Assembly (NCBI RefSeq): GCF_000619825.1
Contig: NZ_JHUW01000010.1
Coordinates: 62,001 to 126,000, forward strand
Length of the DNA: 64,000 bases
Origin: Prevotella sp. MA2016
GTDB lineage: Bacteria > Bacteroidota > Bacteroidia > Bacteroidales > Bacteroidaceae
Direction of reading: 5' to 3'
Under the pieces are notes generated by a model. That model had not been told where the DNA came from, searched no databases, and worked only from the letters and a program-made list of their open reading frames with translations. Each line of letters begins with the position of its first letter. Position 1 is the first letter of the stretch. Both the position numbers and the translations under genes were made by a program. Below are positions 25,641 to 63,180 of this stretch, piece after piece.

Positions 25641-25670
25641 TTGTCGGCTCGAAAACTTGCTATACTTTTG
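25641..25670 (+). promoter_or_regulatory. Promoter of the small-protein/primase operon
   Basis: TTG (25641-25643) and TACTTTTG (25663-25670) are separated by 19 bp. Transcription would begin at the structured leader that follows directly. Confidence 0.65.
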
Positions 25671-25765
25671 CCGTCGCAAACAAGTTGCAACGGCGAGTGA
25701 AGGCTGCGGTTCAGCATAGCTCGAGCGACCTCGGCTCTGCGTTCACCTTGCACTTCACTTGCACT
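25671..25765 (+). promoter_or_regulatory. Structured 5' leader, family member 1
   Basis: Directly after the -7 box comes a hairpin (CCGTCGCAA/TTGCAACGG, one mismatch). Then the block GGCGAGTGAAGGCTGCGG plus TTCAGCA, a second hairpin (AGCTCGAG, loop CGAC, CTCGGCT) and TGC..TTGCACT. The same order is found at 54994-55037, 60874-60961 and 62302-62391. No open frame is needed to explain it. Confidence 0.6.
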
Positions 25766-54702: not shown

Positions 54703-54956
54703 CTAAGGCTTGAAGCCTGTCTGCCATACGGCTTTTACACCCTCACAGAAATCGTAGAGGATGTGGCGGCCCTGAATACGGCGACCGGCTGGCAAGAAAC
54801 CACAAACGATGCGGGTGATGTGGCGGCGGATATTGAATTCCTTCGGGTCATCCACACCGATGCTTTCTACACGCAGGCTGAAGCGACCTATGCCAGGCAG
54901 AACAACCGTTTTTCGTTCTTGTTTGGATTGATAATAGTAATTTTCATTGTTTTTAT
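54703..54956 (-). pseudogene. Remnant of an HU-family gene
   Basis: The minus strand encodes VVLPGIGRFSLRVESIGVDD, then PKEFNIRRHITRIVCGFLPAGRRI and a stop after GFKP. This is the arm and C-terminal part of a Bacteroidales HU (HIG) protein. The N-terminal helices are absent: YYYQSKQERK is joined straight to VVLPG and no ATG opens the frame. A promoter and structured leader remain upstream. Confidence 0.7.
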
Positions 54957-54993
54957 TGATTAATATGCTACTGTTTTCGCTGTAATTTTATTA

Positions 54994-55037
54994 GGCGCAA
55001 GCCTGTTCTCGCAGTTATTTTTATAACTGCAAAGATA
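54994..55037 (-). promoter_or_regulatory. Promoter and leader, family member 4 (partial)
   Basis: On the minus strand TATCTTTG (55030-55037) is followed at once by a hairpin GCAGTTAT/ATAACTGC and then GCGAGAACAGGCTTGCGCC. The later part of the element is missing. Confidence 0.55.
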
Positions 55038-60513: not shown

Positions 60514-60858
60514 TCAATCGGTTACCACTTCATTGAAATGTTCCTTGCCCCAAGCTATCAGAGCCGTAAGTGCTGGCATCAGCGATTTGCCTGTCTCTGT
60601 CAGGGAATATTCCACTCGGGGAGGGACCTCTGGATAGACCTCACGATGTACCAGGTGGCTTTGCTCCAGATTCTTCAGCGTCTGCGAGAGCATCTTCTGG
60701 GAACAGTCCGTCATCAGACGACGGATCTCATTAAAGCGCAATATACCCGTCTCGCTGGTGTGAAGCATATAGAGCACCAGCATAGACCACTTGTCACCGA
60801 AACGACTCACTACTTGCCTGATAGGACAGGCTAAATATTCAGCTTTGATATCTGCCAT
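60514..60858 (-). CDS. HxlR-family transcriptional regulator
   Basis: The ATG at 60858 (MADIKAEYLACPIRQVV) gives 114 residues. The winged helix carries CPIRQVVSRFGDKWSMLVLY, RFNEIRRLMTDCSQKMLSQTL and EVPPRVEYSLTETGKSL. HxlR proteins often sense reactive compounds through a cysteine such as the one near the N-terminus. It is divergent from the cupin/flavin gene pair. After its TGA stop the same frame stays open for 34 more codons of very acidic sequence. Confidence 0.92.
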   Translation of the reverse strand: MADIKAEYLACPIRQVVSRFGDKWSMLVLYMLHTSETGILRFNEIRRLMTDCSQKMLSQTLKNLEQSHLVHREVYPEVPPRVEYSLTETGKSLMPALTALIAWGKEHFNEVVTD

Positions 60859-60873
60859 AACTTCTAATTTTCC

Positions 60874-60961
60874 CGCAAGGACAGTGCAAACCAAATGCAA
60901 TCGAGCTCGCTCGAATTGCTGAGGTGCAGCCTGTTCTCGCTGAGTTTACTCAGCAAAGGTA
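60874..60961 (-). promoter_or_regulatory. Promoter and structured leader, family member 3
   Basis: The minus strand reads TACCTTTG (60954-60961), then hairpin GCTGAGT/ACTCAGC, then GCGAGAACAGGCTGCACCTC and AGCA. A second hairpin TCGAG-CGAG-CTCGA and TTGCATTTGGTTTGCACT follow. The hxlR start follows about 15 nt later. Confidence 0.65.
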
Positions 60962-62301: not shown

Positions 62302-62391
62302 TAATTTTGCAACAAAAGTTGCGAAAATGGGCTGCATCTCAGCAAAAAGCAAGCTTTCTGCATTCGATTTGCACCATCTTTGCCACCATAT
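62302..62391 (+). promoter_or_regulatory. Promoter and structured leader, family member 2
   Basis: TAATTTTG (62302-62309) is followed by hairpin GCAAC/GTTGC, then GCGAAAATGGGCTGCATCTC and AGCA. A second hairpin AAAGC/GCTTT and TGCATTCGATTTGCACC follow. The lipoprotein start follows 42 nt later. Confidence 0.65.
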
Positions 62392-62433: not shown

Positions 62434-63180
62434 ATGAAGAGTTTTAAGTCAACAGTAGGATTTATCTGCGCAGTCCTCATGCTGGCAGCGTGTGGACAGC
62501 AGAACAAAAATGAAACAACTATGGATTTTACAGATGATGTTCAGGTGGCTCTCGCCGACAGCGGGCGCATCGATTTAAACAGCCTGCAGTGGACAAGAGA
62601 GCCAAAGGGCTACGAGGTGAAGGGCGACACCATCCTCATCACCACTGCACCAAAAACCGACCTCTGGCAGCGCACGTACTATCACTTCCAGAACGACAAC
62701 GCCCCCGTTCTGCAGATGAAGACCCGTGAGAAATTCTTTAGTTTCGTGGTGAAGACCGACTTCACAGGCAGTCACCATCGCTTTGACCAGTGTGGTATCG
62801 TGATGTATCTTGGCAGCGAGAACTGGCTGAAAGGCTCGGTGGAATACGAGAACGATGAGTTTCAGCATCTGGGTAGCGTAGTGACGAACAATGGCTACTC
62901 CGACTGGGCCACGACGGCTATTCCCGCAAACGTGAAAACCATGTGGTACCGGTTCTCTCGTCGCGAGGATGACTACTGCATCGAGTGCTCTTCCGACGGA
63001 CAGGCGTTCAGTCAGATGCGCGTCTGCCACATGCCAGCAGCAGCCGATGAAATCAGCTTCGGCATCTATGCCTGCTCGCCCGAAGAATCGTCTTTTACAG
63101 CCACCTTCTCCGATATGAAGATTACCGAATGTGCCTGGAAGGCTCACGACGGCCAACAGCCAGACAAGACATTGCAATAA
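62434..63180 (+). CDS. DUF1349 lipoprotein
   Basis: The ATG at 62434 (MKSFKSTVGFICAVLMLAACG) gives 248 residues with a clear lipobox LAAC. The body is the DUF1349 jelly-roll domain (LNSLQWTREPKGYEVKGDTI, FDQCGIVMYLGSENWLKGSVEYEND, WYRFSRREDDYCIECSSDG). Related proteins bind or act on carbohydrates or similar small ligands; the exact function here is unknown. It is the last intact gene of the window. Confidence 0.88.
   Translation: MKSFKSTVGFICAVLMLAACGQQNKNETTMDFTDDVQVALADSGRIDLNSLQWTREPKGYEVKGDTILITTAPKTDLWQRTYYHFQNDNAPVLQMKTREKFFSFVVKTDFTGSHHRFDQCGIVMYLGSENWLKGSVEYENDEFQHLGSVVTNNGYSDWATTAIPANVKTMWYRFSRREDDYCIECSSDGQAFSQMRVCHMPAAADEISFGIYACSPEESSFTATFSDMKITECAWKAHDGQQPDKTLQ

Follow-up and report, generated by a model that had tools for sequence, protein, structure and literature searches.

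A covarying hairpin behind the −7 promoter box of Prevotella is probably an interspersed palindromic DNA repeat of Bacteroidales

The hairpin that follows the −7 box of an HxlR-type gene in Prevotella sp. MA2016 most probably belongs to a family of interspersed palindromic DNA repeats that is found in Bacteroidales; the repeats are short, at 63-85 bp, REP/MITE-like and anchored to the −7 box. This reading is based on the clean presence or absence of the element, its tandem units, the likeness of copies within the same genome, the covariation of its arms and a pairing that shows no preference for G·U. The window (the whole stretch of 64,000 nucleotides that was analysed) had been predicted to carry a structured leader RNA or, alternatively, a mobile leader, and the latter is nearer the mark.

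Comparison with Rfam 15 gave no match to a described family at the gathering score, with a relaxed E-value returning noise and tRNAs being the only other matches. We have found no description of the element in the open-access literature, subscription papers being outside that search. The family is an unnamed one, present in most of the Prevotella-type genomes tested, placed at the most sensitive point of the promoter and still polymorphic between close species. Its natural pairs of filled and empty promoters are ready material for measuring the effect of the insert on expression, and it provides a starting point for learning how short DNA hairpins spread when no transposase is evident.

Copies in the window and anatomy of the hairpin

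The original prediction placed four copies at TAnnTTTG boxes. All four boxes, at 25663 (+), 62302 (+), 60961 (−) and 55037 (−), do have a hairpin directly 3' of them, but when all TAnnTTTG sites of the window were scanned, only three had the immediate hairpin together with the GGCTGC block, the fourth having the hairpin alone. The window contains three full copies, with core lengths of 63-70 nt, and a core-deleted remnant at 54994-55029. The pattern GCGARAACAGGCTGCRYCTCAGCA matched twice in the window and never in shuffled sequence, and is thus not to be expected by chance. In the source genome (3.38 Mb), a first covariance model (CM) detected five copies and a broader one nine. The features in the window are as follows.

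60953..60961 (−): −7 box TACCTTTGC of the HxlR gene; the insert starts right after it
60941..60952 (−): hairpin I TGAGTAAACTCA, within the 78-bp insert; missing from empty orthologous promoters
60875..60940 (−): hairpin core GCGAGAACAGG...CACTGTCCTTGC, 66 nt; CM 85.6 bits; rumen-set alignment
60517..60858 (−): downstream HxlR-type gene; gap from insert to ATG 16 nt
62302..62310 (+): −7 box TAATTTTGC, from the box scan
62309..62322 (+): hairpin I GCAACAAAAGTTGC; a similar TTTTTGCAACAAAGTT occurs in an element-free paralogue
62321..62383 (+): hairpin core GCGAAAATGGGC...CACCATCTTTGC; CM 83.4 bits; compensated arm changes ATGG/CCAT
62434..63177 (+): lipoprotein-like gene downstream; its paralogue at G000:C4:372381 (G000, the source genome), 83% identical, is without element
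25663..25671 (+): −7 box TACTTTTGC, from the box scan
25670..25694 (+): hairpin I GCCGTCGCAA ACAAG TTGCAACGGC; box scan and spacer pairing count
25693..25762 (+): hairpin core GCGAGTGAAGGC...CACTTCACTTGC; arms GTGAAG/CTTCAC; CM 65.1 bits
54997..55037 (−): remnant, with −7 box TATCTTTG, hairpin I GCAGTTATAAAAATAACTGC and GCGAGAACAGG joined to CTTGC; core deleted; 9 bits by CM

The intact counterpart of the remnant was found at L046:5535-5600, before a similar gene start (MKITIIN...). We also observed that window positions 54850-55037 (−) join the promoter and first codons (MKITIINPNKNEKR) of an L046-like gene to a broken HU-like frame.

An exact 24-letter motif scan of genome contigs yielded 87 loci in rumen Prevotella, Xylanibacter and related Bacteroidaceae/Bacteroidales. 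The conserved block, the second hairpin and the TGCATT..TTTGCACT tail, which had been described as separate parts, are real sequences, but they form one long imperfect hairpin: in the rumen form, the outer arm GCGAGAACAG pairs with CTGTCCTTGC, located just beyond the end first assigned to the element. From the outside inwards, the outer arms are followed by the conserved GGCTGC opposite TTGCA and by a variable helix of 3 bp; after an internal loop come GCA/TGC and, at the apex, a stem that is again variable. The fixed core of the family is GGCTGC-nnn-TCA-GCA...TGC-nTTC-nnn-TTGCAC, and the arms around it covary extremely.

The predicted covariation of the stems was borne out. In the rumen alignment (41 sequences) both sides had changed at 7 of 17 pairs; in an independent set of 73 distinct copies, from other loci and mostly other genera, this rose to 15 of 17, with 96.7% of cells paired, none of 500 shuffles as good and collapse of the slid controls. 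This second alignment had been fitted to the structure, and a separate check was therefore made without structural fitting. When arms were defined by their constant distance from sequence anchors, they were 76-96% Watson-Crick in the right register vs 19-45% in others; this exceeded all 1,000 shuffles for the rumen set, G010 and G045, the small G137 set being the exception. The outer stem accepts nearly any sequence across genera while pairing is kept (AGTACTG/CAGTACT, AAGTCAG/CTGACTT, ATCATCG/CGATGAT, TTATCG/CGATAA).

Hairpin I, between box and core, is likewise real, with at least four pairs in 22 of 71 distinct spacers (0.75 expected), but it is very weak or missing in many copies. At the HxlR gene of the window it covaries with the CGTG..CACG and GCTG..CAGC of orthologues. 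As a separate observation, an extra hairpin-forming sequence of ~36 nt (GCCACACTCTGTACCTTTAGGTCAGAG) lies within the element loop of L082, L096 and L050, its orientation in L050 being the reverse of that in the other two; this insert is a second small mobile hairpin.

Distribution, promoter context and insertion polymorphism

The covariance-model search of Bacteroidales showed the element to be widespread, with its pairing conserved. It was detected in 258 of 299 genomes of the window's genus and in 189 of 301 genomes of the family (20 of 30 genera), and an order-wide sample of 294 genomes gave 34 carriers besides the source genome, in about 20 further Bacteroidales families. Its hosts include both rumen and oral Prevotella. 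Units are single or in tandem; copy-rich genomes have 20-46 of them, which often follow one another every 66-68 bp.

In the window's genus, nearly all copies directly follow the sigma-ABfr −7 box (TAnnTTTGC) on its 3' side, oriented with transcription and placed between promoter and gene; the upstream box was present at 53 of 64 clusters, against a background of 0.012. In the family-wide search, TAnnTTTG was found within 42 nt upstream at 31 of 60 loci from other genera, about half being without it, which weighs against a strict tie to the box. The copies behind a −7 box are probably transcribed. At a promoter with an upstream box the insert leaves the box intact, and the transcribed leader would become ~78 nt longer if this box is used. 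In most clusters about 20-80 nt separate the last unit from the ATG. The length left downstream of the element is close to that of usual leaders in B. thetaiotaomicron, most often 23 nt with a median of 32 (PMC7366714).

The downstream genes of this multi-copy family are unrelated, as had been predicted, and include those for HxlR, Pnp, MurG, PGK, GpmI, DHPS, MutS, rubrerythrin, HU-like proteins, peptidases, lipoproteins and tRNAs (Arg, Leu, Glu, Lys, Thr). A regulon defined by gene function was rejected, no common theme being apparent downstream when judged by eye. Some copies are antisense: in two genomes of one genus other than the window's, L256:1501-1563 and L266:1501-1565 lie between tRNA genes, adjoining tRNA-Gly with tRNA-Tyr or tRNA-Asp on the opposite side, and in other genera L298, L307, L320 and L337 lie between codirectional genes. 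Others are contained in larger repeats of about 180-290 bp (genomes G371, G544 and G792). In G371 (L268-L276, L318) larger palindromic repeats have the element core at their apex, and at L318 it tops a long palindrome whose inverted ends, GAGGGTGTGTCAAAACT, resemble those of an IS-derived MITE. A full element was also seen upstream of a short frame in an IMG/VR contig classed as viral (L015).

The HxlR promoter gave the clearest view of presence and absence. Among 28 distinct orthologues, 15 were filled and 13 empty, with a common upstream sequence and box and the insert directly after TAnnTTTGC. The distance from the box end, or the insert end, to the ATG had a median of 16 nt in filled and empty promoters alike. 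The insert, a 12-nt hairpin I plus the core, measured 78-79 bp at every filled site except the altered L036 and terminates in TTGC, as does the preceding box. In several pairs the tails of the two states are identical or nearly so: empty L352/L359/L363 and filled L069 have ACTAAAATCATGAATT, empty L371 and filled L353 have GACAAAATCTATAGTT, and empty L367 has GGCAAAATTAGAAGTT where the window has GGGAAAATTAGAAGTT. In the gene tree, at least three changes of state are needed, most simply seven, and the filled L353 and empty L354 are sisters with support of 100/99. The HxlR copy of the window is an insertion polymorphism.

Filled HxlR copies have related hairpin I variants, which makes a single old gain followed by repeated loss possible. 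This suggests one old gain and then several losses at the site, where the polymorphism need not stem from fresh transposition. The partial remnants L360 (CGTGCAAACAC...) and L364 (CGTGCAAACACG without core) are consistent with loss by slippage between TTGC repeats.

The pnp promoter has the same filled/empty polymorphism. Its element-free forms (L383, L398, L411 and others) often have the motif TTTGC-N8-11-GCGCAAAGnCGC, which is possibly a remnant or an unrelated mini-hairpin. For the window's lipoprotein gene, the paralogue in the source genome has a promoter without element; between G010 and G000, the MurG and lipoprotein orthologues were too distant in sequence to define an exact empty site.

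Copies also resemble each other within genomes. For 94 of 128 units the nearest relative lay at a different locus within the same genome (20% expected), which shows copying within genomes; for the orthologue pair L174/L182, vertical descent and local copying are both compatible. In G777, copies are alike over only 71-90 bp, from box to box, and their flanks are unrelated.

Nature of the pairing and alternative explanations

According to the original prediction, the covariation implied RNA structure. If an RNA fold were selected on the transcribed strand, G·U departures from Watson-Crick pairing should far outnumber A·C departures, and the element does not follow this rule. The G·U:A·C ratio, counted over events that are not independent, was 32:31 for the inner helices; the outer stem, anchored by sequence, gave 6:15 and hairpin I 1:5. 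The tRNA stems of the same loci, used as control, gave 22:1 (Fisher test against tRNA, p 9e-5 for inner and 4e-6 for outer). The tally excludes the A·C that is fixed in the rumen form and the outermost positions of the outer arms, among them the conserved wobble G3·U68. The covariance-model alignment is biased toward G·U, a bias that runs counter to the conclusion of no G·U excess. These counts speak for a pairing of DNA, or of either strand, rather than of leader-strand RNA. Covariation by itself is no proof of RNA, and with the antisense copies and the empty orthologous promoters the implication of RNA structure is not supported.

A cis-regulatory leader, in which a hairpin at the start of the mRNA would either be bound by a protein or protect the 5' end and covariation keeps the RNA fold, is nonetheless compatible with the sense placement just 3' of the −7 box in the window's genus, the short distance of the last unit to the ATG, the conserved bulges around UGC/GCA, the strong covariation and the covarying hairpin I arms among HxlR orthologues. 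The single conserved wobble, G3·U68 in 148 of 238 aligned copies, would also suit a leader-strand RNA, and in the rumen set taken by itself G·U outnumbers C·A by 4:1 in the middle helix. The missing G·U excess argues against it, as do the many orthologous promoters without element, the broad and unrelated downstream genes, the members inside larger DNA repeats and the antisense copies in tRNA operons and operon gaps; moreover, where copies precede tRNA genes translation cannot be the target. We therefore regard a leader RNA as unlikely. An origin by promoter duplication appears equally improbable. Here, tandem promoter units would have been multiplied by slippage, with the hairpin as a by-product of box and anti-box. 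In copy-rich genomes the 3' arm doubles as a −7 box (TATCTTTGC ATAAGATAGGCTGC...GCACTATCTTTGC), oral-type genomes combine the TATCTTTGC arm with tandem units, and TAnnTTTG is kept in the 3' arm of 61 of 92 units, all of which fits such a process. However, units with a decayed 3' box (GAACTTTG, TTTCTTTG, CTGTCCTTGC, CGATGATT) still keep their pairing, so that the 3' box alone cannot account for the hairpin, and slippage cannot explain interspersed copies at unrelated genes.

That the element is a REP moved by a RAYT or other Y1 transposase (TnpA-REP), including Bacteroidetes subclass 2.6, is very improbable, even though the bulged hairpin, intergenic location and tandem clusters are those expected and the source genome encodes a subclass-2.6-like protein (C7:199448-200236, L239) with NHIH and YIHQNP (motifs as in PMC6006769). 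Y1_Tnp (PF01797) was found in just 8 of 20 genomes and not in the copy-rich G137, G163, G261, G102 and G125, while G127 has three Y1_Tnp and no element was found in it. No Y1 locus has an element nearby, including that of the source genome, and of the other copy-rich genomes tested only G432 has the 2.6-like protein. Two Y1/RAYT searches found no enzyme that tracks the family, and a resident Y1 enzyme as the mover is largely refuted.

Proposed mechanism and comparison with known systems

Returning to the preferred reading, a mobile DNA repeat, the recognised unit would be a folded single DNA strand, for whose 5' arm the upstream box and the box-like 3' arm are alternative pairing partners (TATCTTTGC / ATAAGATAGG...CACTATCTTTGC). 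Insertion beside the box could then rebuild the box or its TTGC end and the promoter would keep working, and losses may occur by slippage between the TTGC repeats flanking the palindrome. The letters of the upstream and 3' boxes agree in 35 of 54 cases (p 0.0015), and the sequence following the box recurs after the element, a direct-repeat echo on both sides that is beyond all 2,000 shuffles. As a tentative extension, which we consider rather doubtful, the family could be a hairpin mobile across the order that inserts at the −7 box itself, for example in the open single-stranded transcription bubble, rebuilds the promoter with its box-like arm and depends for its movement on an enzyme so far not associated with such repeats.

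REP/BIME/REPIN sequences with RAYT are short bulged palindromes, intergenic, clustered and with lineage variants, and their single-strand hairpin is likely to be what is recognised (PMC2817692, PMC3733652, PMC6006769). The element is also a short bulged, intergenic and clustered palindrome with many copies and lineage-specific variants. It differs in lacking a constant tetranucleotide tag of the GTAG/GGAG type, its foot varying freely (GCGAGA, ATAAGA, TGATTA, GACATC, TAGATT), in having no linked Y1 gene flanked by element copies, in its position at the −7 box/transcription start in the window's genus and in a core sequence common to the whole order. Integron attC sites have conserved GTTRRRY / RYYYAAC boxes at the arm ends, which the element lacks, its outer arms varying freely.

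Like MITEs, the element is short, non-coding and interspersed, with empty sites. Its arms are inverted repeats, and TTGC brackets the insert, target duplication and carried sequence being indistinguishable; a search among Y1 enzymes found no autonomous parent transposon. The BrickBuilt MITE of Porphyromonas gingivalis consists of 23-nt tandem units without spacer, with leader and tail, in one species (PMC4596501). Both occur in Bacteroidales, in intergenic, multi-copy and tandem form and with promoter content, but by the description of BrickBuilt (PMC4596501) the element is set apart as a single 63-85 nt hairpin inserted exactly after TAnnTTTGC, its repeated unit measuring 63-75 nt. Compared with the ends of IS200/IS605 transposons and their non-autonomous forms, the element is one hairpin rather than two ends, and no TnpA tracks the family; it shares with them the insertion 3' of a short fixed target and the clean empty sites, and the ability of its arm to pair with the flanking target recalls the pairing of guide and cleavage site in IS608 (PMC6006769).
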